The position numbers and the translations under genes are program-made. Below, one piece after another: positions 1,210 through 21,482 of a stretch of DNA of 64,000 bases. This DNA is from Streptomyces showdoensis. Lineage in GTDB: Bacteria > Actinomycetota > Actinomycetes > Streptomycetales > Streptomycetaceae. Under the pieces are notes generated by a model. The model searched no databases and was not told where the DNA came from. It was given only the letters and a program-made list of their open reading frames with translations. Every line of letters starts with the position of its first letter. Positions within the stretch are counted from its first letter, which is position 1. The stretch lies in NCBI RefSeq assembly GCF_039535475.1, contig NZ_BAAAXG010000028.1:496001-560000 (forward strand). Reading direction: 5' to 3'.

Positions 1210-2456
1210 GCGCGCGCCTCCGCGATTGCCTTCGCCGCGAGTTCCCGGGCCCGGGCCCGTGCCCAGGTCTCCGCTTCCAGGACGTCGGACACCGTGAGCG
1301 AGGTTCCCCGGTCCGGGGTGCCGTGCTCGGTGACGACCCGGGTGACCGTATCCATGATTCCGTTGAACGGCAGCTTTCCGGCGAGGAAGGCGTCCACGCA
1401 CTCCTCGTTGGCGGCGTTGAAGACGGCGGGCGCGGTGCCGCCGAGCTCGCCGACGTGGCGGGCCAGGTTCACCGAGGGGAAGGCCTCGTTGTCGAGGGGG
1501 AAGAACTCCCAGGTGGAGGCCTTGGTCCAGTCGAAGGCGGGGGCCGCGTCGGGGACCCGCTCGGGCCAGCCGATGCCGATGGCGATCGGGCCGCCCATGT
1601 CCGGCGGGGTGGCCTGGGCGAGCGTGGAGCCGTCCGTGAACTCGACCATCGAGTGGACGTACGACTGGGGGTGGACGACGACCTCGATGCGGTCGAACGG
1701 GATGTCGTAGAGCAGATGGGCCTCGATGACCTCCAGGCCCTTGTTGACCAGGGTCGCGCTGTTGACCGTGATCACCGGGCCCATGGCCCAGGTCGGGTGG
1801 GCGAGCGCGTCCTCGCGGGTCACGCCCTCCAGCTCGGCGCGGGTGCGGCCGCGGAAGGGGCCGCCGGAGGCGGTGACGACCAGCTTGCGGACGTCGTCGC
1901 GGGTGCCGGCGGCGAGCGCCTGGAAGAGGGCCGCGTGCTCGGAGTCGACCGGGATGATCTGCCCGGGCTTGGCCAGCGCCTTGACCAGGGGGCCGCCGAC
2001 GATCAGCGACTCCTTGTTGGCCAGCGCCAGGGTGCGGCCGGCCTCCAGGGCGGCCAGCGTCGGCGCCAGGCCGATGGAGCCGGTGATGCCGTTGAGGACG
2101 GTGTGGCAGGGCGAGGCCGCGAGCTGCGTGGCGGCGTCGGGGCCCGCGAGGAGCTCGGGCAGCGGCTCCGTGCCGTACAGCGCCGTCAGCGCCGCGCGCA
2201 GCTCGGGCAGCGCCTCCTCGCGGGCCACCGCGACCGCGCCGACCCGCAGCCGGTGCGCCTGCTCGGCGAGCAGCCCGATCCGGCCGCCGGACGCGGCGAG
2301 GGCGGTGACCCGGAACCGGTCGGGGTTGCGCAGGACCAGGTCGATGGCCTGGGTGCCGATGGAACCGGTGGAGCCGAGCACGACGATGTCGCGGCGTCCG
2401 GTGGACACATCGAAGGCGATGTGCGGGTCGGCGAGAGGAGAGGGGCGGTCGCTCAT
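1206..2456 (-). CDS. dxr: 1-deoxy-D-xylulose 5-phosphate reductoisomerase
   Basis: Second enzyme of the MEP isoprenoid pathway; it converts DXP to 2-C-methyl-D-erythritol 4-phosphate with NADPH in the cytosol. Visible motifs in order are the Rossmann glycine loop [20 protein letters not shown], the metal site [18 protein letters not shown], the substrate loop [12 protein letters not shown] and FNAANEECV near the C-terminus. All family motifs look intact. Starts at 2465 (MGGMSD) and 2456 (MSD) are both possible; I prefer the internal one by comparison with Streptomyces homologues (416 aa). It is translationally coupled to rseP downstream. Confidence 0.96.
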
Positions 2457-2490
2457 GCCCCCCATTCTCGCCGCAAAGACTGTGCGCTCC

Positions 2491-3738
2491 TCACAGCCCC
2501 CGGGCGAACGCCTCGAAAACGGTGTGGAAGTCCGGGAAGGTCTTCCGTACGCAGCCGGGGTCGTCGAAGGTGACGCCGGGGGTGCGCAGGGCCGTGACCG
2601 CGAACGACATCACGATGCGGTGGTCGCCGTGGGTGGCGATCTCCGCCGGTCCGGCGGGGGTGCCGGGGTGGATCTCGATCCAGTCCGGACCCGTGTCCAC
2701 GGTGATGCCGAGCGCGCGCAGGTTCTCGGCGCAGGCGTCGAGGCGGTCGCACTCCTTGACCCGGGTGTTGGCGACGTCCTCGATGCGGACCGGCCCGTCG
2801 GCGAAGGGGGCGATCGCGGCGAGGGTCGGCATGGTGTCGGAGATGTCGCGCATGTTGACGGTGAGGCCGCGCAGGGTGCCGGTGGAGCGGACGGTGGTCC
2901 GGTCCGCCCCGATCGTCACGTCCGCCCCCATCCGGCGCAGTACGTCGACGAAGCCGAGGTCGCCCTGGAGGGCGCCGGTGCCGAGGCCGGGGACGGTGAC
3001 GGCGCCGCCGGGGGTGAGGGCGGCGGCGGCGAAGAAGTAGCTGGAGGTGGAGGCGTCGGGCTCGATGGCGTAGGTGGTGGCGCGGTAGCCGGTGGGCGCG
3101 ACGGTGTACGTGCGTCCTTCGGGCCCGTCCTCGCGCGCGATCTCGGCGCCGAAGGCCCGCATCATCGCGAGGGTGATCTCCACGTACGGCTCGGAGACCA
3201 GGTCGGTGACGGTGACGGCGAGCCCGTCGGCGGTGAGCGGGCCGAGCATCAGCAGGGCGGTGAGGTACTGGGAGGACTGCCCGGCGTCGAGGCGGAGCGC
3301 CCCGCCCTTGATGCCGCGGCCGGTGACGGTGAGCGGGTGGTGGCCCTCGCGCTCGCCGTGCGCGAGCTCGACGCCGAGTTCGCGCAGGGCGGTGGTGAGC
3401 GGGCCGAGCGGGCGGCGGCGCATCTGGGGCGAGGCGTCGAAGCGGAAGGTGCCGTGGCCGGCGGCGGCGAGGGCCGGCAGGAAGCGGGCGGTGGTGGCGC
3501 CGTCGCGGCAGTACACGTCGGCTTCGGCGACCCCGGGGCCGGCGGGCCGGCCCTCGATGTGCCAGGCGCCGGGCTCCTGGCGTACGGCGTAGCCGAGGGC
3601 CTTCAGCCCCTCGGCGAAGCCCTCGGTGTCGTCGGAGCGCAGCGGCCGCAGGAGCGTGGTGGTGCCTTCGGCCGCGGCGGCGAGGAAGAGCGCGCGGGCG
3701 GTGACGGACTTGGAGCCGGGGATGTCTATGACGGTCAC
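2491..3738 (-). CDS. aroA: EPSP synthase (AroA) family protein, divergent paralogue
   Basis: Predicted 3-phosphoshikimate 1-carboxyvinyltransferase (shikimate pathway), 415 aa. The N-terminus opens directly on the substrate loop PGSKSVTARAL (Lys/Ser/Arg ligands present). Other conserved sites are DASTSSYF, NTRVKECDRL, the GDHRI motif and the C-terminal RKTFPDF lysine. The loop that is GNAGTAMR in E. coli AroA reads RDGATTAR here, so the position equivalent to Gly96 is Ala. It lacks the long N-terminal leader I associate with the usual Streptomyces AroA, so this may be a second copy, either housekeeping or serving a secondary pathway. It lies 25 bp upstream of dxr on the same strand. Family sure, exact role less so. 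Confidence 0.85.
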   Translation of the reverse strand: MTVIDIPGSKSVTARALFLAAAAEGTTTLLRPLRSDDTEGFAEGLKALGYAVRQEPGAWHIEGRPAGPGVAEADVYCRDGATTARFLPALAAAGHGTFRFDASPQMRRRPLGPLTTALRELGVELAHGEREGHHPLTVTGRGIKGGALRLDAGQSSQYLTALLMLGPLTADGLAVTVTDLVSEPYVEITLAMMRAFGAEIAREDGPEGRTYTVAPTGYRATTYAIEPDASTSSYFFAAAALTPGGAVTVPGLGTGALQGDLGFVDVLRRMGADVTIGADRTTVRSTGTLRGLTVNMRDISDTMPTLAAIAPFADGPVRIEDVANTRVKECDRLDACAENLRALGITVDTGPDWIEIHPGTPAGPAEIATHGDHRIVMSFAVTALRTPGVTFDDPGCVRKTFPDFHTVFEAFARGL

Positions 3739-3834
3739 GGGCCCCAGTCTGCCGTGGGCCGCGGACGGGGGGCGCGGCGTTTCGGCCAGTGGACGGACGG
3801 CGTCCGCCCGTCCACACGGGCCGTTCCGCTCCCG

Positions 3835-5763
3835 CTACGGGATCTTCCGGTGCACGTTCTCCTCGGCCGAGGGACCGGGGGTGGTGTCCGCGATCCAGGG
3901 CCCGTCGTCGCTCGGGTCGAGGATGCCCTCCTCCAGCCAGGTGTACGAGCCCGCGAGGACGCCGTCGACGACCTTGCGGTCGAGGTCGTCGGTGTTGGCC
4001 CACAGTCGGCCGAAAAGCTCGTCCACCCGCAGCCGCGACTGGCGGCAGAAGGCGTCGGCGAGCTGGTGCGCCTCGCGGCCGTGGTCGGTGGTGGTGCGCA
4101 GGAGTTCGGCCCGGACGCAGACCGCGCTCATCGCGAAGAGCTCCGCGCCGATGTCGACGATGCGGCCGAGGAAGGCCTGCTTGAGCTCCATCCTCCCCTG
4201 CCAGCGGGACATGGCGTAGAAGGTCGAGCGGGCCAGCTTGCGGGAGGTCCGCTCGACGAACCTGAGGTGGGTCGCGAGCTCGCCGAACTCCCCGTACGCG
4301 CCGGGGAGCTGTCCCTGTCCGGCGACCAGTTTCGGCAGCCAGCGGGCGTAGAAGCCGCCCGCGCGGGCGCCCGCCCTCGCCTTGTCGACGAGGGCCTTGT
4401 CGGGGTCGATGATGTCGCCGGCGACGGCCAGGTGGGCGTCGACGGCCTCGCGGGCGATCAGCAGGTGCATGATCTCGGTCGAGCCCTCGAAGATGCGGTT
4501 GATCCGCAGGTCGCGCAGGAGCTGTTCGGCCGGTACGGCGCGTTCGCCGCGGGCGGCGAGCGAGTCGGCGGTCTCGTAGCCGCGGCCGCCGCGGATCTGG
4601 ACCAGCTCGTCGGCCATCAGCCAGGACATCTCGGAGCCGTAGAGCTTGGCGAGGGCGGCCTCGATGCGGATGTCGTTGCGGTCCTCGTCGGCCATCTGGG
4701 AGGCGAGGTCGACGACGGCCTCCAAGGCGAAGGCGGTGGCGGCGAGGAAGGAGATCTTCGTGCCGACGGCCTCGTGCCGGGCGACCGGCTTGCCCCACTG
4801 CTCGCGTTCGGCGGCCCACTCTCGGGCGATCTTCAGGCACCACTTGCCGGCGCCCGCGCAGGCGGCGGGCAGCGAGAGCCGGCCGGTGTTGAGGGTGGTG
4901 AGGGCGATCTTCAGGCCGGCGCCCTCGGGCCCGATGCGGTTCGCGGCCGGGACCCGCACCCGGTGGAAGCGGGTGACGCCGTTCTCCAGGCCGCGCAGGC
5001 CCATGAAGGCGTTGCGGTGCTCGACGGTGATGCCGGGCGCGTCGGCCTCGACGACGAAGGCGGTGATGCCGCCCTTGTGGCCCTCGGAGGCGGGCACCCG
5101 GGCCATGACGACGAGGAGGTCGGCGACGACGCCGTTGGTGGTCCACAGCTTCACGCCGTCGAGGACGTACGTGTCGTCCCCGTCGGGCACGGCGGTGGTG
5201 GCGAGCCGCGCCGGGTCGGAGCCGACGTCCGGCTCGGTCAGCAGGAACGCGGAGATCGCGTCGCGGGCCAGCCGGGGCAGGAAGGCGTCCTTCTGCTCCT
5301 GGGTGCCGAACAGCTTCAGCGGCTGCGGGACGCCGATCGACTGGTGGGCGGAGAGCAGCGCGCCCAGCGCGGGGCTGACCGAGCCGACCAGGGCGAGGGC
5401 CCGGTTGTAGTACAGCTGGGTGAGGCCGAGGCCGCCGTACTTGGGGTCGATCTTCATGCCGAGCGCGCCCAGCTCCTTGAGGCCGGTGACGGTCTCGTCG
5501 GGGATGCGGGCCTCGCGCTCGATGCGGGCGCCGTCGACGCGGGTCGCGCAGAACTCGCGCAGCTTGGCGAGGAAGGCCTCGCCGCGCCGGACGTCCTCGT
5601 CGGCGGGGAGCGGATGCGGATGGATGAGGTCGAGCCGGAAGCGGCCGAGGAAGAGTTCCTTGGCGAAGCTGGGCTTGTGCCAGTCCTGCTGGCGGGCCGC
5701 CTCGGCTACCTGCCGGGCCTCGCGTTCGGAGACCTTGGGCGGGCGCTGGGTGGGTGCGGACAT
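3835..5763 (-). CDS. Acyl-CoA dehydrogenase with C-terminal extension
   Basis: FAD flavoenzyme catalysing alpha,beta-dehydrogenation of an acyl-CoA. At 642 aa it is much longer than the ~380-aa core family. The N-terminal helical domain is followed by the FAD-binding segment FLLTEPDVGSDPARL. The middle beta domain has LWTTNGVVADL, and the C-terminal helical domain has the typical IFEGSTEIMHLLIAREA. A ~180-residue helical tail follows, as in VLCAD/ACAD9-like members and bacterial long forms. It is probably a single-gene unit: the aroA paralogue lies downstream after ~95 bp and a 342-bp gap lies upstream. The chain length of the substrate cannot be read from sequence. Confidence 0.9.
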   Translation of the reverse strand: MSAPTQRPPKVSEREARQVAEAARQQDWHKPSFAKELFLGRFRLDLIHPHPLPADEDVRRGEAFLAKLREFCATRVDGARIEREARIPDETVTGLKELGALGMKIDPKYGGLGLTQLYYNRALALVGSVSPALGALLSAHQSIGVPQPLKLFGTQEQKDAFLPRLARDAISAFLLTEPDVGSDPARLATTAVPDGDDTYVLDGVKLWTTNGVVADLLVVMARVPASEGHKGGITAFVVEADAPGITVEHRNAFMGLRGLENGVTRFHRVRVPAANRIGPEGAGLKIALTTLNTGRLSLPAACAGAGKWCLKIAREWAAEREQWGKPVARHEAVGTKISFLAATAFALEAVVDLASQMADEDRNDIRIEAALAKLYGSEMSWLMADELVQIRGGRGYETADSLAARGERAVPAEQLLRDLRINRIFEGSTEIMHLLIAREAVDAHLAVAGDIIDPDKALVDKARAGARAGGFYARWLPKLVAGQGQLPGAYGEFGELATHLRFVERTSRKLARSTFYAMSRWQGRMELKQAFLGRIVDIGAELFAMSAVCVRAELLRTTTDHGREAHQLADAFCRQSRLRVDELFGRLWANTDDLDRKVVDGVLAGSYTWLEEGILDPSDDGPWIADTTPGPSAEENVHRKIP

Positions 5764-13460: not shown

Positions 13461-13743
13461 GAACCCCTGCCCCCTGACCAGCCAGGTCGCCGCAACTGTG
13501 CCATCGTCAATCTAGTGGGCGCGGCCCGTCCCGGAGGGGTTTCGCCCACCCGTTCGGCCGATCGTCGGCACAGCTCCGACCCGAGCCGCCGCGCTGCCGG
13601 GCCGCAGCACCTGCCGTCATGTCCACCAAGGACAACGACACACCCCCCAACACTCCCGATCGGCGCATGCCTCCGCCCCTCCCTCCCGCCTAGCCTGCGG
13701 AGGAAACCCGCAAGTGCGTCCAGAACACCCCCAGGAGCCCCGC

Positions 13744-15078
13744 ATGAACGCTGTCCCGCAGGAGCGGCGCGTCGTCACCGCCATTCCCGGCCCGAAGTCG
13801 CAGGAGCTTCAGGCCCGTCGTCTCGACGCGGTCGCCGGTGGCGTGGGCTCCACGCTGCCGGTGTTCACCAAGCGGGCCGGCGGCGGCATCATCGAGGACG
13901 TCGACGGCAACCAGCTGATCGACTTCGGCTCCGGCATCGCCGTGACCTCCGTGGGCGCCTCCGCCGAGGCCGTGGTCCGCCGCGCCTCCGCGCAGCTCGC
14001 GGACTTCACCCACACCTGTTTCATGGTCACGCCGTACGAGGGTTACGTCGAGGTCTGCGAGGCGCTGTCCGAGCTGACCCCGGGCGACCACGCCAAGAAG
14101 TCCGCGCTGTTCAACTCCGGCGCCGAGGCCGTCGAGAACGCGGTCAAGATCGCCCGTTCGTACACCAAGCGCCAGGCCGTCGTCGTCTTCGACCACGGCT
14201 ACCACGGCCGTACGAACCTCACCATGGGCATGACGGCGAAGAACATGCCGTACAAGCAGGGCTTCGGTCCGTTCGCCCCCGAGGTCTACCGCGTGCCGGT
14301 GGCCTACGGCTACCGCTGGCCCACCGGTGCCGAGAACTGCGGCCCCGAGGCCGCCGCCCAGGCGATCGACAACATCACGAAGCAGATCGGCGCCGAGAAC
14401 GTCGCCGCGATCGTCATCGAGCCGGTCCTCGGCGAGGGCGGCTTCATCGAGCCGGCCAAGGGCTTCCTGCCGGCCATCGTGAAGTTCGCCAACGACAACG
14501 GCATCGTCTTCGTCGCCGACGAGATCCAGTCCGGCTTCTGCCGCACCGGCCAGTGGTTCGCCTGCGAGGACGAGGGCATCGTCCCGGACCTCATCACCAC
14601 CGCCAAGGGCATCGCGGGCGGCCTGCCGCTCGCCGCGGTCACCGGCCGCGCCGAGATCATGGACTCCGTCCACGGCGGCGGCCTCGGCGGCACGTACGGC
14701 GGCAACCCGGTCGCGTGCGCCGGTGCGCTCGGCGCCATCGAGACCATGAAGGAGCTCGACCTCAACGCCGCGGCGAAGAAGATCGAGTCCCTCATGAAGG
14801 CCCGTCTGACGGCCATGCAGGAGAAGTTCCCGATCATCGGCGACATCCGCGGCCGCGGCGCGATGATCGCGATCGAGCTGGTCAAGGACCAGGCGACCAA
14901 GGAGCCGAACCCGGAGGCCGCCGGCGCGCTCGCCAAGGCCTGCCACGCCGAGGGCGTCCTCGTCCTGACCTGTGGCACCTACGGCAACGTGCTCCGCTTC
15001 CTGCCGCCGCTGGTGATCGGCGAGGACCTCCTGAACGAGGGCCTGGACGTCATCGAGAGCGCGTTCGCCCAGATCTGA
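13744..15078 (+). CDS. gabT: 4-aminobutyrate--2-oxoglutarate transaminase
   Basis: Class III PLP aminotransferase, 444 aa, transferring the amino group of GABA to 2-oxoglutarate to give succinate semialdehyde. Motifs: FNSGAEAVENAVKIAR, the PLP aspartate strand VFVADEIQSGFCRTG, and the Schiff-base lysine in TTAKGIAGGLPLA. The ATG at 13744 has an AGGAG 6 nt upstream; a GTG at 13714 with GGAGGA is an alternative. A strong hairpin follows downstream (15316-15355). With the polyamine genes at 22-43 kb it completes a putrescine-to-succinate route. Confidence 0.93.
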   Translation: MNAVPQERRVVTAIPGPKSQELQARRLDAVAGGVGSTLPVFTKRAGGGIIEDVDGNQLIDFGSGIAVTSVGASAEAVVRRASAQLADFTHTCFMVTPYEGYVEVCEALSELTPGDHAKKSALFNSGAEAVENAVKIARSYTKRQAVVVFDHGYHGRTNLTMGMTAKNMPYKQGFGPFAPEVYRVPVAYGYRWPTGAENCGPEAAAQAIDNITKQIGAENVAAIVIEPVLGEGGFIEPAKGFLPAIVKFANDNGIVFVADEIQSGFCRTGQWFACEDEGIVPDLITTAKGIAGGLPLAAVTGRAEIMDSVHGGGLGGTYGGNPVACAGALGAIETMKELDLNAAAKKIESLMKARLTAMQEKFPIIGDIRGRGAMIAIELVKDQATKEPNPEAAGALAKACHAEGVLVLTCGTYGNVLRFLPPLVIGEDLLNEGLDVIESAFAQI

Positions 15079-15166: not shown

Positions 15167-15991
15167 ATGAGAGAAACACCCCGGGCGGAGCCTCCCCAGC
15201 CCCGCCCACACCGTGCCCTGGCGCACACCACTGGAGCCCTGGGCTCCGGAACTCCTCACCGATCGGATGGCCGCCCGCCCCACACCCCCCGGGGCGCGCG
15301 GCAGCCCGGTCCTGGCGGCCGCCCCGGAACAACCCCCCCTGTTCCGGGGCGGCCGGCTGTCTTCTGGGCCCTCGTCGCCCTCGCCCTCACCACCTGGCAG
15401 GTCCTGGTCCACGGCCCGCTGGCCCGCCTCGACGAACGCCTCTCCCGCGCCCTGGTGGACACCGTCCCGCGCGGCCTGAGCGAGGCCGCCTCCGACCTGG
15501 GCAACCTGACGGTCGCGCTGCCGGTCCTGGCCGCCGCCATGGCGTACGCGATCCGGCGCGGCCGCCGCGCGGAGGCCCTCTTCGCGGGCCTGGCCATGGC
15601 CGCCGTCCCCCTCCTGGTCGTCCCCCTGAAGGCGTGGACCGCCCGCCCCGGCCCCCTCGAGCCCTGGGCCCACGGCTACTACCCCTCCGGCCACACGGCC
15701 ACGGCCCTGATCGCCTACTTCGGCGCCGCCTTCCTGGTCTCCCGGCGCCTGGTCCCGGTGGCCGCCCTGCTCACGGCGGTGACCGCCACGGGCCTGCTCC
15801 TCCGCGGCTTCCACTGGCCCCTGGACGTCCTGGCCTCCGTCGCCCTGTGCGTCCCCCTGCTGCGCTGGCCGGTCCTGGCGGCGCGGTACGGTCGGGGCTC
15901 GCCGGACGGCCGGCGCGGGGAGGGGACGGGAACATGGCGGACACGGGAGAGCAGTACGCCGTCACGGTCGGGGGACGGCCCTACGAGCTGA
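15167..15991 (+). CDS. PAP2-superfamily membrane phosphatase
   Basis: Membrane lipid/undecaprenyl-pyrophosphate-type phosphatase, up to 274 aa with about five helices. The acid phosphatase signature is complete: KAWTARPGP, then YPSGHTATA, then RGFHWPLDVLA with the catalytic His and Asp. The conserved domain begins at ~15356. The ~60-residue Pro/Arg-rich N-terminus is atypical, contains a 16-bp hairpin and has no clear Shine-Dalgarno, so the start is uncertain. The 3' end overlaps mcrB by 58 bp, making PAP2-mcrB-mcrC a likely transcriptional unit. No functional tie to restriction is known. Confidence 0.8.
   Translation: MRETPRAEPPQPRPHRALAHTTGALGSGTPHRSDGRPPHTPRGARQPGPGGRPGTTPPVPGRPAVFWALVALALTTWQVLVHGPLARLDERLSRALVDTVPRGLSEAASDLGNLTVALPVLAAAMAYAIRRGRRAEALFAGLAMAAVPLLVVPLKAWTARPGPLEPWAHGYYPSGHTATALIAYFGAAFLVSRRLVPVAALLTAVTATGLLLRGFHWPLDVLASVALCVPLLRWPVLAARYGRGSPDGRRGEGTGTWRTRESSTPSRSGDGPTS
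15316..15355. terminator. 16-bp perfect hairpin between gabT and PAP2 domain
   Basis: CGGCCGCCCCGGAACA (15316-15331) pairs perfectly with 15340-15355 around an A-C7 loop. It is positioned like a gabT terminator, yet it falls inside the presumed PAP2 N-terminal coding region, hinting that the true PAP2 start or frame near here needs revision. Confidence 0.65.
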
Positions 15992-18388
15992 TGCCGTCGG
16001 GCGGCTGGGTCATCCTGCCGCTCCACGGCAGCAAGATCCATCACGATCCGTCCTGCGGCCACCTCACCGACTCCGGCGCCCTCCCCCGCTACCCCGACCC
16101 CGACGGGCTCCTCTGGCGCCGGCTGCTGGACGCCGACGACGTGACCGCCTTCGCTGAGGGGGCCCAGCTCCTCAACGGCAAGGGGCGGCCGGTCACCGGC
16201 GTCTGCTCCTGCGCGCTGCGACCCGTCACCGAGAGTTACGCGGCGGACCTGGAGTACTGGCCGGTCGATGAGGCGCTGCGCGTCTTCGACCGCGACCGGT
16301 ACCTCGACGCCGTGGAGGCGGCGGAGCGCGACGCGGCGGCGATCAGGGCCGCGTTCCCCTGGGAAGAGTGGCCCACGCTGCCGGTCGAACGCTACGCCCT
16401 CGGTCAGCCCGGCGCCCCCGGACCGGTCTACAGCCATGTCCTCGAGTACGGCAGCAAGGCGCTCGGCAGCATCACCGGCGGCTCTGCGATGAAACACCTG
16501 CTCTACCGGCGCAGTGACGGCACCTGGTGGTACGACAAGGGCCACGGCAGCCTCGACGAGGCCTGGGAGGCGATCCGTTCCGGCGTCGTGGCGGCGGTGA
16601 CCGCCGCCCGCGAGGGGCGGCTCCGGGACATCGACGACCTGCCGGCGGTCCGCTCCGGCATCACGGTGATCGCGAAGACCCTGCGCGTCTACGCCCCCGA
16701 GGCGACCCTGCCCGTCTACGCCGACAGCTTCACCCAGCACTATCTGGACCGGCTCGCCCCCGGCACCGGGACGAAGCTGCAGCCCTTCGCCCGCAAGGAG
16801 GCGCTGAAGCGGCTCATCGACGCCGACCCCCGCTTCCAGGACTGGCCGCCTCAGCTCGTCTGGTACTTCCTGGACTGGTGGGCGCCGGTCCGGCGCACCG
16901 CGGGCCGGGTCGTCCGGATCGGTCTGCCCGACGCGGGCCGCTGGGACAGGTTCCGTGGCGAGGGATACATCGCCGTCGACGCCGACCGGATCGGCGACCT
17001 GCACGGCTATGCCGACCTGGACGAGTTCAAGGCCGCGTACGCCGAGGCCTTCGCCGGCACCGGCCATCCGGCCGAGCGGGCGGCGGACCTCTGGCAGCTT
17101 CCGGAGCTCCGCCTCGGCGACCGCGTGGTGGCGACCAGCGGGCGCAGCGAGGTGCTCGGCGTCGGCAAGGTCACCGACGGCTACCGCTGGCGCGCCGACC
17201 TCCCCGACCACCGGCACACGGTCGACGTCGTGTGGGACGGGACCTGCGCGGGCGGACTGGACCAGCCGGTCGCCGAGTGGGCCGGGCGGACGGTCACCGA
17301 GGTGCCCCCCCGCCCTCTGGCGCCGGATCCAGAAGCTCTCCGCCACGCCCGGCTCGGCGGGCGACGGCGTCGCGGCGAACGGTACGGCACCGGCCGGCGG
17401 CGGTTCCGAGGCCCAGGAGATCCCTCCCCTGGAGGACGACCTCCAGCGCATCGACGACGCCCTGGAACGGCGCGGCCAGGCCGTGCTGTTCGGGCCGCCC
17501 GGCACCGGCAAGACCTACCACGCGCTGCGCTACGCGGTACGACGGCTGGGCGAGCTCTCCGACGACCTCCCGGGGGTGGACCCGCTCGCCGAGCCCGGCT
17601 CCGCGGCCTTCCGCGAGACGCTCGACGCGCTGACCGGGTCCGGCCGGCTGACCATGGTGGCCTTCCATCCGAGCTACGGCTACGAGGACTTCGTCGAGGG
17701 CCTGCGCCCGGTCGACGGCGCCGAAGGTCTGGCGCTGCGCCCGGCGCCAGGCGTCTTCAAGCGGGTCTGCGCGCGGGCGGCCGAGAACCCCGGCCGGCTG
17801 CACCTGGTGATCGTCGACGAGCTCAACCGGGGCAATCTGCCCCGCATCCTGGGCGAGCTGATCACGATCCTGGAGAAGGACAAGCGGGGTCTGCCGGTCA
17901 CCCTGCCGCTGACCGGCGAGGCCTTCCGGGTGCCGCCGAACGTACGGATCCTCGGCACCATGAACACCGCCGACCGTTCGATCCGGATGCTCGACGCGGC
18001 CATCCGCCGCCGCTTCAGCTTCCTCGAACTCCTCCCCGACTCCCGCCCGCTGGTCGACCGCTGGGTCGGGAAGCTGCATCTGGCGGACTTCCTCGACGAG
18101 CTCAACCGGCGCATCCGGAGCCTGCTCGACCGCGAGAAGCAGATAGGGCACGCCTTCTTCCTGCCCGGGGGCAGGCCGGTCTCCTCGCCCGCGGAGTTCG
18201 CGGCCGTGATCCGGGGCGAGATCCTGCCCCTGCTGCAGGAGTACGCGTACGACGACTACACCCTGCTCGCCGGCTTCCTCGGGGACGGGCTGGTCGATCC
18301 GGCCACGCACACCCTGAAGGACGTGGGCGACGAACCCCTCGTCACCCTGCTCTACGAGGAACTGCAGGTCGGTGCCGGTGCCGAGTGA
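15934..18388 (+). CDS. mcrB: McrB-like AAA+ GTPase with EVE-like and Cys/His N-terminal modules (frameshifted)
   Basis: GTPase motor and reader of a type IV (modified-DNA) restriction system. The start is ATG 15934, with GGGGAGGGG 8 nt upstream. Reading continues to ~17310, then must skip one base: the run of seven C at 17305-17311 has one too many. With six C the protein reads VPPALWRRI and is 817 aa. Layout: residues 1-95 hold His36, His37, Cys41, His43 and Cys91-x-Cys93 (possible metal site). Residues ~234-320 are a helical region like other McrB homologues. An EVE-like module (~337-445) contains LGDRVVATSGRSEVLGVGKV. AAA+ follows, with Walker A GPPGTGKT at 520-527, Walker B VDELNRGNL at ~625 and the McrB signature MNTADRS at ~676. 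Either an assembly error or a broken or phase-variable gene. It overlaps mcrC. Confidence 0.88.
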
Positions 18389-19667
18389 GGCCGTCCACGA
18401 GCTGCGCGAGTACGGCTCCGCGGTCTTCGAGGGCATCCGCCTGTCGGATGCCGACCGGCGTCTGCTCGCCGACGGCAGGCTCGACGCGCGGCTGAGGCTG
18501 CGCGAGCTCGCCGGCGGGAAGCTGGAGGTGACGGCGTACCAGTACGTGGGCGCGGTGCGTCTCGACGGCTGTGAGATCCGCGTCCGTCCGAAGTACCTCG
18601 GCACCGAACTCGACGTCCTGAGGATGCTCGACCTCGCCTGGGGCGCGGCACGCGACCCGCTGCCCACCGCCCAGGAGTTCCGCGGCGGGGCGCCGAACCT
18701 GCGGGACCTGGTCTGCCTGATGGTGGTGGAGCACGGTGAGCGGCTGCTGCGGCACGGGGTGCGCCGGGACTACCTGACCGTCGAGGACGATCTGCGGGTG
18801 GTCCGCGGCCGGCTGCTCCCCGACCGGCAGCTGGTGCGCCACCTCGGCCGGCTCGACCGGCTCGCCTGCCGGTTCGAGGAGCACGACGCCGACATCCCCG
18901 ACAACCGGCTGTGCGCGGCCGCCCTCGCACTCGCCGCCCGCACCGCCCGCGCGCCCGGGGTGCGGGCCCGTGCCCGGCGGGCCGCGGCGGAGTTCGCGGC
19001 CCACGCGCCCACCGCGCCCGGGGACGTACGGGCGCTGCTGTCCGGTCTGGCGTTCCACCGGCACAACGAGCACTACCGGCCGGCGCACGGATGGGCCCGG
19101 CTGTTGCTGCTCGGCGGAGGTCTGGACGGCCTGTTCGCGTCCGGGGCGCTGGCGGCGCGGGCCTTCCTGGTCGACATGAACCGGCTGTTCGAGGACTTCG
19201 TGACGCGGCTCGTGGAGTGGGGCGCGGCGGGCTCGGGGCTGCTCGTGACGTCCCAGTCCCGGCACCGGAAGGTGCTGTACGACGAGCGGGCCGGGCGGAG
19301 CCACGGGGAGGTGCGGCCCGACCTGCTGGTCACGGGGCGCCGGGAGGGTGAGCCGTTCCGGCTTCCGGTGGACGTGAAGTACAAGCTGTACGACACGAGG
19401 AAGCTCTCGCCGGAGGACCTGTACCAGGCGTTCCTGTACGCGCAGACCCTGGGCCGCGGCCTGGGCGGGGATCCTCCCGTCCGTGTCCTGCTCCACCCGG
19501 GCGACGGATCGGCGCGGGGCGCCCGGGTTGCGGTGCGCCGGCTCGACGGGCCGGTCACGGCCCGGGTGCGGGCGGTGCCGGTGGACCTGGCGGCGGTCCT
19601 CGCCGAGCAGGCCGGTCCGGGGCCCTCGCGGGCCGCGGACCGGCTGTTCTCACAGCTGCTCGGCTGA
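18372..19667 (+). CDS. mcrC: McrC-like endonuclease subunit
   Basis: Nuclease partner of McrB, 431 aa. The N-terminal McrBC family region (EYGSAVFEGIRLS, RVRPKYLGTELDVLRMLDLA) is followed by a PD-(D/E)xK core: Asp317 in EVRPDLLV, then Asp334-Val-Lys336 in PVDVKYKLYD, matching the E. coli McrC catalytic arrangement. All catalytic residues are present, so this subunit looks intact. The GTG start at 18372 (or 18378) lies inside the mcrB 3' end (17-nt overlap), indicating translational coupling and a two-gene operon. It ends 9 bp from the convergent chitinase gene. Confidence 0.92.
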   Translation: MPVPSEAVHELREYGSAVFEGIRLSDADRRLLADGRLDARLRLRELAGGKLEVTAYQYVGAVRLDGCEIRVRPKYLGTELDVLRMLDLAWGAARDPLPTAQEFRGGAPNLRDLVCLMVVEHGERLLRHGVRRDYLTVEDDLRVVRGRLLPDRQLVRHLGRLDRLACRFEEHDADIPDNRLCAAALALAARTARAPGVRARARRAAAEFAAHAPTAPGDVRALLSGLAFHRHNEHYRPAHGWARLLLLGGGLDGLFASGALAARAFLVDMNRLFEDFVTRLVEWGAAGSGLLVTSQSRHRKVLYDERAGRSHGEVRPDLLVTGRREGEPFRLPVDVKYKLYDTRKLSPEDLYQAFLYAQTLGRGLGGDPPVRVLLHPGDGSARGARVAVRRLDGPVTARVRAVPVDLAAVLAEQAGPGPSRAADRLFSQLLG

Positions 19668-19676
19668 GGCCCTCCG

Positions 19677-21482
19677 TCAGCTCCAGTTGTAGGCGTCGAA
19701 GTTCCGGCTGAACTCCCACTGGTTGTAGCGGTCCCAGTTGATCGACCAGGTCATCAGGCCGCGCAGGGCCGGCCAGGTGCCGTGGGTCTGGTAGGTGCCG
19801 CAGTCGGTCTTCCTGGTGAGGCAGTTGAGGGCCTTGTTGACCTCGGCCGGGGTGGTGTGGCCGTTGCCGGCCTGGGTGGAGGCGGGGAGGCCGATGGCGA
19901 CCTGGTCGGGGCGGAGGGCCGGGAAGACGCGGGCCGTGTTGCCGGCGACGGGGAAGCCGGTGAGGAGCATGTCGGTCATGGCGATGTGGAAGTCCGCGCC
20001 GCCCATCGAGTGGTACTGGTTGTCGAGGCCCATGATGGAGCCCGAGTTGTAGTCCTGGACGTGCAGCAGGGTGAGGTCGTCGCGCAGGGCGTGGATGACC
20101 GGGAGGTAGGCGCCGGCGCGGGGGTCCTGGCCGCCCCAGGGGCCGGAGCCGTAGTACTGGTAGCCGAGCTGGACGAAGAAGGTCTCCGGCGCCATGGTGA
20201 GGACGAACTTCGCGCCGTACTTGGCCTTGAGGGTCTTGACCGCCGAGATCAGGTTGACGATGACCGGGCTGGTCGGGTTGCGGAAGTCGGTGTCGCCGGT
20301 CTGGAGCGAGAGCGAGTGGCCCTCGAAGTCGATGTCGAGGCCGTCGAGGCCGTACTCGTCGATGATCTTCGAGACGGAGGAGACGAAGGTGTCGCGGGCG
20401 GCCGTGGTGGAGAGCTGGACCTGGCCGTTCTGGCCGCCGATGGAGATCAGGACCTTCTTGCCGGCGGCCTGCTTGGCCTTGATGGCGGTCTTGAAGTCGG
20501 CGGGGGACTCGACGTTCGGGCACTCGGTCGCGGGGCAGAGGCTGAAGCGGATGTCGCCCGAGGTGACCGAGGTCGGCTCGCCGAAGGCGAGGTTGATGAC
20601 GTCCCAGGAGTCGGGGACGTCGGCCATGCGGGTGTAGCCGGAGCCGTTGGCGAAGCTGGCGTGGAGGTAGCCGACGAGGGCGTGGGCGGGCAGGGAGCCG
20701 CCGGGGTTGCCGCCGCCCCCGCTGGTCGTCGTGCCGGTCACGGCGGTGGACTTCGCCGACTCGCCCGCGCTGTTCGCCGCGGAGACCTGGAAGCTGTACG
20801 AGGTGGAGGCGGCCAGGCCGGTGGCGGTGTACGAGGTGCCGGTGACGGTCGCGACGAGGACGCCGTCCCGGTAGAGCTTGTAGGAGGTGGCGCCGGACAC
20901 CGCCGGCCAGCTCAGGGTGATCGAGGACGAGGTGGCGGAGCCCGCGGTGAGGCCGGCCGGGGTGGCCGGGATCTGGACCGGGTCGCCGCCGGGGCCGAGC
21001 AGGGACAGGTCGTCGGCGAGGTAGGCGCCGGTGCCGTACCAGCCGTGGGTGTAGATCGTGACCGAGGTGGTCGAGGCGCCGGTGGTGAAGGTGGTGGCGA
21101 GCCGCTGCCAGTCGGGGGCGGACTGGGTCCAGGCGGAGACGTCGGTGGTGCCGGTGCCGGAGGCGCCGAGGTAGACGTAGCTGCCGCGGACCCAGCCGCT
21201 GAGCGCGTAGGTGGAGTTCGGCTTCACGGTGACGGTCTGGGAGCACTTGGCGTTGTCGCTGCCCGCCGGCGTGGCCTGCAGGGCCTTGGTGCCGCCGTGC
21301 ACGGGGGTGGCGACGGCGGCCCCGCTGCCGGCCGTGCAGCTCCAGCCGTCCAGGCCGGACTCGAAGCCGCCGTTGCGGGCGAGTTCGGTGTCGGCGGCCT
21401 GGGCCACGGGGGTGAGCGCGACGAGTCCGCCGGCGGCGAGGACGCCCGCCAGCAACAGGGTCAGGGGTCTGGTGCGGTCCAC
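19677..21482 (-). CDS. Secreted GH18 chitinase with carbohydrate-binding and Fn3 domains
   Basis: Extracellular endo-chitinase, 601 aa. The Sec signal peptide (residues 1-~32) ends PVAQAADT. A CBM-like beta domain (NGGFESGLDGWSC to LADDLSLLG, ~35-165) and one fibronectin type III domain (~175-260) follow. After a Gly-rich linker comes a GH18 catalytic barrel (~272-600) with the catalytic signature DGLDIDFEG and SIGGQNGQV. The GTG start at 21482 has GGAGG 5 nt upstream. Expression is probably chitin-inducible through the 12-bp direct repeats just upstream. Single-gene unit, convergent with mcrC. Confidence 0.95.
   Translation of the reverse strand: MDRTRPLTLLLAGVLAAGGLVALTPVAQAADTELARNGGFESGLDGWSCTAGSGAAVATPVHGGTKALQATPAGSDNAKCSQTVTVKPNSTYALSGWVRGSYVYLGASGTGTTDVSAWTQSAPDWQRLATTFTTGASTTSVTIYTHGWYGTGAYLADDLSLLGPGGDPVQIPATPAGLTAGSATSSSITLSWPAVSGATSYKLYRDGVLVATVTGTSYTATGLAASTSYSFQVSAANSAGESAKSTAVTGTTTSGGGGNPGGSLPAHALVGYLHASFANGSGYTRMADVPDSWDVINLAFGEPTSVTSGDIRFSLCPATECPNVESPADFKTAIKAKQAAGKKVLISIGGQNGQVQLSTTAARDTFVSSVSKIIDEYGLDGLDIDFEGHSLSLQTGDTDFRNPTSPVIVNLISAVKTLKAKYGAKFVLTMAPETFFVQLGYQYYGSGPWGGQDPRAGAYLPVIHALRDDLTLLHVQDYNSGSIMGLDNQYHSMGGADFHIAMTDMLLTGFPVAGNTARVFPALRPDQVAIGLPASTQAGNGHTTPAEVNKALNCLTRKTDCGTYQTHGTWPALRGLMTWSINWDRYNQWEFSRNFDAYNWS

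Follow-up and report, generated by a model that had tools for sequence, protein, structure and literature searches.

According to PMC7641849, EVE-McrB is the commonest architecture among the EVE proteins of defense systems, and such fusions, often with additional domains, occur in nearly 300 genera (Bell et al. 2020); a census of them is given in PMC11090510. The McrB of Thermococcus gammatolerans carries a YTH domain that binds N6-methyladenine (6mA) (PMC7641849 and PMC7897488). For the EVE-HNH endonuclease VcaM4I, the pocket is described as P24, W82, and Y130; the residues emphasized in 2eve are W26 and Y82, not both of which are conserved in VcaM4I (PMC7897488). Here, we analyzed an mcrB-mcrC pair of Streptomyces showdoensis, located in a stretch of 64 kb (positions 496001-560000 of contig NZ_BAAAXG010000028.1; the assembly has 29 contigs and totals 8.5 Mb), hereafter called the window. 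We read it as an McrBC type IV restriction pair with an EVE reader, predicted to recognize and cut modified foreign DNA, and we assign this reading a probability of about 0.8. To our knowledge, few EVE-McrB readers have a known target.

The gene pair is real, with mcrB at 15934-18388 and mcrC at 18372-19667; mcrC begins with a GTG ahead of the end of mcrB, and the two genes share 17 bases. The initial annotation had proposed a type IV restriction system on the basis of GTPase motifs and McrC catalytic residues, and all of these were found again: Walker A GPPGTGKT, Walker B DELNRGN, and MNTADRS in the AAA+ part of McrB, and D317, D334, V335, and K336 in McrC. The domain matches (AAA_5 and McrBC PF10117) agree with it, the PF10117 match being the single one at E ≤ 0.001 in the whole genome. 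The features of the system are the following.

15934..16254, plus strand: mcrB residues 1-107, N-terminal Cys/His extension (invariant residues; confident model)
16261..16899, plus strand: mcrB residues 110-322, domain with homology to the PD-T4-1 N-terminal part, largely helical (PADLOC PDLC04021)
16900..17310, plus strand: mcrB residues 323-459, predicted EVE/YTH-like base-reader domain
17305..17311, plus strand: run of seven C, one base more than in orthologs, with a +1 break in the mcrB frame
17309..18388, plus strand: AAA+ GTPase part of mcrB, in the second frame (Pfam AAA_5, E 3.1e-13; GPPGTGKT, DELNRGN, MNTADRS)
18372..19667, plus strand: mcrC, PD-(D/E)XK nuclease subunit (Pfam McrBC PF10117, E 4.1e-43; D317, D334, K336)

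We called this extended form of McrB at E ≤ 1e-60, the cut-off that divides extended from shorter homologs, and compared 11 carriers of it (the window, L025-L031, and L094-L096). GPPGTGKT, DELNRG, and MNTAD (NxxD) were kept in 11/11 carriers, and D317, D334, and K336 of McrC in the 10/10 that are readable. In the remaining one, L095 (G224; genome 88% complete), mcrBC is fragmentary in the alignment, possibly owing to assembly frame errors.

The NCBIfam McrB model matched the AAA+ part at 2.5e-38, under its equivalog cut-off, and the top sequence matches of the family profile in the PDB were solved McrB GTPases (6ut5, 4.2e-65; 6hz4, 1.1e-57). The best matches also include 6ut3, which, like 6ut5, we take to be from T. 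gammatolerans. The pair shares with the McrBC of Escherichia coli K-12 the NxxD signature of the GTPase, the PD-(D/E)XK nuclease of McrC, and the operon order, but the DUF3578/ADAM reader of that system was not found: a DUF3578 match, which the initial annotation had considered for McrB, was absent from both window McrB pieces at E ≤ 1 (Pfam). CoCoNuT systems are defined in PMC11090510 by NxD in place of the NxxD motif. As NTAD corresponds to NxxD in 11/11 carriers, the system is not a CoCoNuT.

The region before the AAA+ domain had been compared to an EVE-like reader, and structural models support an EVE/YTH (PUA-like) fold preceding the McrB GTPase, as in EVE-McrB. The stretch LGDRVVATSGRSEVLGVGKV, quoted in the initial annotation, lies at residues 394-413, within this domain, and the PDC-S02 models of PADLOC match the region at 6.3e-7. 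The window McrB had also been called composite, and it is more so than claimed, as a PD-T4-1-like module and a Cys/His extension precede the reader. PD-T4-1 comes from the E. coli pangenome, where it acts against phages (Vassallo et al. 2022, PMC9519451); PMC10952713 lists it as having a PD-(D/E)XK domain. Its profile (PDLC04021) matched residues 112-281 of the window protein at 3.1e-5 over profile positions 11-176, the remainder of its 383 positions being unmatched, and was matched by 9/9 members of alignment A1 at E ≤ 1 (best 1.5e-21). The N-terminal residues 1-107 were modeled with high confidence as a domain, in which H36, H37, C41, H43, C91, and C93 are invariant in 39/39 extended sequences, window included; we consider it a putative zinc-binding module. 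No similarity of McrB 108-320 to HhH-GPD DNA glycosylases was seen at the level of sequence profiles: against 14 glycosylases (of 29 loci submitted), hhalign gave a score of 17.5 and a probability of 0.5%, within the range of 20 column shuffles (11.0-20.9).

Like the known EVE-McrB fusions, the window protein joins a predicted reader of the EVE superfamily to the McrB GTPase, but it adds two N-terminal modules and the Trp at the inferred pocket position is replaced. The McrB of T. gammatolerans similarly bears an EVE/YTH-superfamily reader, without the extra N-terminal modules, and the substrate of the window protein is a prediction. VcaM4I differs in having its HNH nuclease on the same chain, whereas here the work would be divided between McrB and McrC. 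Closer relatives are the Streptomyces proteins named "McrB family protein" or "AAA family ATPase" (PF28530 + PF28529 + AAA_5), which by alignment have the same middle, EVE, and GTPase modules; the 50 non-extended homologs that we aligned lack the Cys/His extension of about 110 residues of the window subgroup. With a non-extended homolog as query, 1,108 proteins were found at E ≤ 0.001, and the 120 listed all carry precomputed PF28530, PF28529, and AAA_5, so the core architecture is already known. The features of the subgroup that may be less known are its Cys/His extension and its altered pocket. No description of them was found in the available parts of PMC11090510, PMC7641849, and PMC7897488 or in a literature search; we do not claim that they are unpublished.

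On this basis, the EVE domain of McrB (323-459) would read incoming DNA by flipping a modified base into its pocket, and the PD-T4-1-like and N-terminal Cys/His modules could aid it by widening DNA contact or specificity. By analogy with known McrBC systems, McrB would then form GTP-driven rings, McrC would dock and stimulate GTP hydrolysis, and the McrC nuclease would cut the DNA. The evidence for this reading consists of the gene pair, the conserved residues of GTPase and nuclease, the modeled EVE fold, a middle module homologous to a defense protein, an intact copy of the protein in the database, and the retention of the pair at one site in two Streptomyces clades. Some results weigh against it. 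The window mcrB is not a single open frame, as the frame switches at the C run, which counts against this copy and not against the family. The profile of the EVE region matched no PDB sequence at E ≤ 10, and so the EVE match is structural only. Finally, at position 350, the inferred EVE pocket position, the window protein has Ala and not Trp, a replacement that may prevent binding of the usual substrate.

The frame break was weighed in its own right. From the ATG at 15934, mcrB reads 459 codons in one frame, and the AAA+ part follows in the +1 frame; the gene is thus split, at which the initial annotation only hinted by mentioning a "corrected McrB". Seven orthologs from a scan of named genomes have one base fewer at the C run, and their N-terminal and GTPase parts lie in one open frame of 832-1176 codons. 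Over 13.7-21.5 kb, the +1 at 17311 was the sole unbalanced indel within a gene relative to L025 (Streptomyces sp. Root431), and it appeared relative to L026 and L031 too. In addition, a database protein (P0008; 817 aa) is uninterrupted and identical to the window pieces (459 + 359 residues, with one shared Pro). Of the 2 contigs on record for P0008, the longest has 264,457 bases and is thus not the window's contig, which has 746,539; the protein could derive from the same strain or from another. Since the orthologs are without the extra base and P0008 is intact, we attribute the shift either to an error in the assembly or to a mutation confined to this isolate, and the sequence data fit both. 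In the case of an assembly error, the McrBC of the strain is probably functional; a homopolymer miscall may then be concealing an active restriction barrier, a point relevant to transforming the strain. Were the extra C real, mcrB would be a true pseudogene in a locus decaying toward the mcrBC-less state of most Streptomyces, and both the broken frame and the absence of the extended system from most of the genus sample are coherent with this. However, the rest of mcrB and mcrC is open with all catalytic residues kept, the neighborhood shows that one unbalanced in-gene indel only, and a residue-identical protein is unbroken in the database; decay is thus unlikely, and a homopolymer miscall is the better explanation. 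Programmed +1 ribosomal frameshifting at this site, giving a reader-only product next to the full McrB, would suit a +1 shift at a run of proline codons, but 0/7 aligned orthologs have the extra base, all of them reading through in one frame, and the same protein exists uninterrupted. These data rule out a conserved programmed frameshift and leave frameshifting a very improbable explanation.

The pocket bears on what the reader would recognize. Position 350 is Trp in 50/50 non-extended homologs, while the 39 extended sequences have Trp in 15, Ala in 8, and mixed residues in the others; position 419 is Trp in 39/39 extended sequences and Tyr or Phe in 50/50 non-extended ones. From the order of structural elements (strand, helix, strand, then the residue), we tentatively take position 350 to correspond to W26 of 2eve and P24 of VcaM4I. 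These replacements, and the different pocket residues of VcaM4I and 2eve, would be compatible with a reader that now recognizes another mark (a larger base modification or a backbone mark) or mainly DNA itself, and not modified cytosine or adenine. This is a minority possibility, though not a small one: it depends on the placement of position 350 by secondary-structure order, and VcaM4I, itself without that Trp, still binds 5-methylcytosine (5mC) and 5-hydroxymethylcytosine (5hmC), so that the lost Trp only suggests a changed base specificity. The 39 extended and 50 non-extended sequences form a natural series that differs in one whole module and at one probable pocket residue, so that comparing its members could test base specificity. 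A broader proposal would see in the Streptomyces subgroup a three-part reader (Cys/His, PD-T4-1-like, and EVE with the pocket Trp replaced) for a mark other than 5mC, 5hmC, or 6mA, in a pair that persists at a single chromosomal site as a presence/absence allele, with no mobility genes; taken as a whole, we hold this combination to be improbable. The restriction pair with an EVE reader for modified foreign DNA remains our preferred interpretation.

The order of genes at the locus is, from left to right, gabT, a PAP2-family gene, mcrB, mcrC, and a convergent chitinase gene. The latter ends at 19677, 9 bases downstream of mcrC. The pair had been placed between gabT and a chitinase: the chitinase does adjoin mcrC, but the PAP2-family gene, a neighbor outside the McrBC system, separates gabT from mcrB. 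The features on the left side are the following.

13714-15078: gabT, neighboring gene
15350..15991, plus strand: PAP2-family phosphatase gene, conserved core to stop (Pfam PF01569, E 7.2e-7; stop position)
15881..15894, plus strand: short element GCGCGGTACGGTCG, about 40 bases upstream of mcrB, with near-identical copies before mcrB of other carriers

The PAP2 frame runs past the mcrB start and ends at 15991, so that the two genes share 58 bases. The consensus of GCGCGGTACGGTCG was matched in 7/11 carriers versus 0/57 non-carrier loci scanned, and the other four carriers have near-matches by eye. The element could be a candidate promoter -10 region, its bases also coding for the PAP2 tail.

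The extended system was present in 8/392 Streptomyces genomes, the window's own counted. Among 61 genomes drawn from the family, only the window's own yielded it, and it was found in 0/51 genomes from the 16 other genera of that draw. The carriers fall into two distant Streptomyces clades, and in 10/11 of them mcrBC lies between PAP2 and chitinase. The exception is L029 (Streptomyces sp. AC550_RSS872), where mcrBC keeps its right-hand neighbors but gabT and PAP2 form a block in inverted orientation to it, and no chitinase was detected. As a comparison, we considered about 10 kb downstream of gabT in 57 non-carriers, taken from 149 genomes with a strong gabT match; this is a non-random draw, largely the nearest by gabT and for the rest mainly few-contig genomes. 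McrB or McrC was found at E ≤ 1e-8 in 0/57 of these stretches, and several of the genomes have shorter homologs elsewhere. At least one usual downstream gene (chitinase, the gene at 21.6-22.1 kb, or the FAD oxidoreductase) follows PAP2 in 52/57, and none was found within the stretch in the other five (L061, L066, L068, L069, and L083). The initial annotation had proposed a base reader and a likely lineage-specific insertion, naming as refuting outcomes the lack of a reader fold and the presence of the pair here in nearly all Streptomyces. Neither occurred: a reader fold is predicted, and the pair is accessory, with few of the sampled genomes carrying it. A recent foreign insertion is instead unlikely, given the two distant clades, the same junction in 10/11 carriers, and an McrBC tree that mainly follows the flanks.

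To describe the history of the locus, we compared the McrBC tree with that of four flanking proteins in the 11 carriers and in a larger flank tree of 62 rows. McrBC and flank trees agree on all three starred flank-tree branches, and their pairwise identities are correlated (Pearson 0.81). The conflict is local: in the McrBC tree, the window and L025 form a pair (100/99), whereas in the 62-row flank tree L025 belongs to a group with support 98 that excludes the window. In approximately unbiased (AU) tests, the McrBC data rejected a topology lacking this pair (p-AU 0.0004), and the flank data mildly disfavored the pairing (p-AU 0.047 with 11 rows and 0.126 with 62 rows). The 62-row tree also favors (92) L094 with L029 over L028. 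Carrier state on this tree requires at least nine changes, eight of them forced by starred branches, and the scatter of carriers was not distinguishable from shuffled labels (66/500 as low). The non-carrier L049 and the carrier L031 are sisters with opposite states; their identity, 96-100% in most outer bins, falls to 87-90% near the PAP2 end, with no clear switch of nearest relative near the junction, L031 being among the closest to L049 throughout. These results are suggestive, and no more, of some allele exchange by recombination with flanking DNA. Overall, the gene phylogenies are coherent with a fixed-site, old presence/absence locus rather than a recent insertion: the pair would be old at the site, often gained and lost, and may have been partly exchanged with flanking DNA. 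A defense pair that holds a single housekeeping site over long divergence, yet comes and goes between species, contrasts with the usual picture of mobile defense islands.

A few non-carriers have other DNA at the junction. In L044, a 766-aa open reading frame (ORF) lies at about 2404-4704 between PAP2 and chitinase, at the mcrBC position of carriers. As for a defense hotspot at the site, this ORF and the several ORFs of L062 show no defense gene by eye, no dedicated search having been made. Plasmid copies of the reader half were also considered and rejected, the matches in 5 records covering 22-25% of the query at <60% identity. Finally, in the non-carriers L039, L040, L041, L042, and L049, the PAP2 frame is not closed ahead of the chitinase stop and continues into the 3' end of the chitinase gene, with almost the same junction in each, although the flank tree intersperses these five genomes with carriers.
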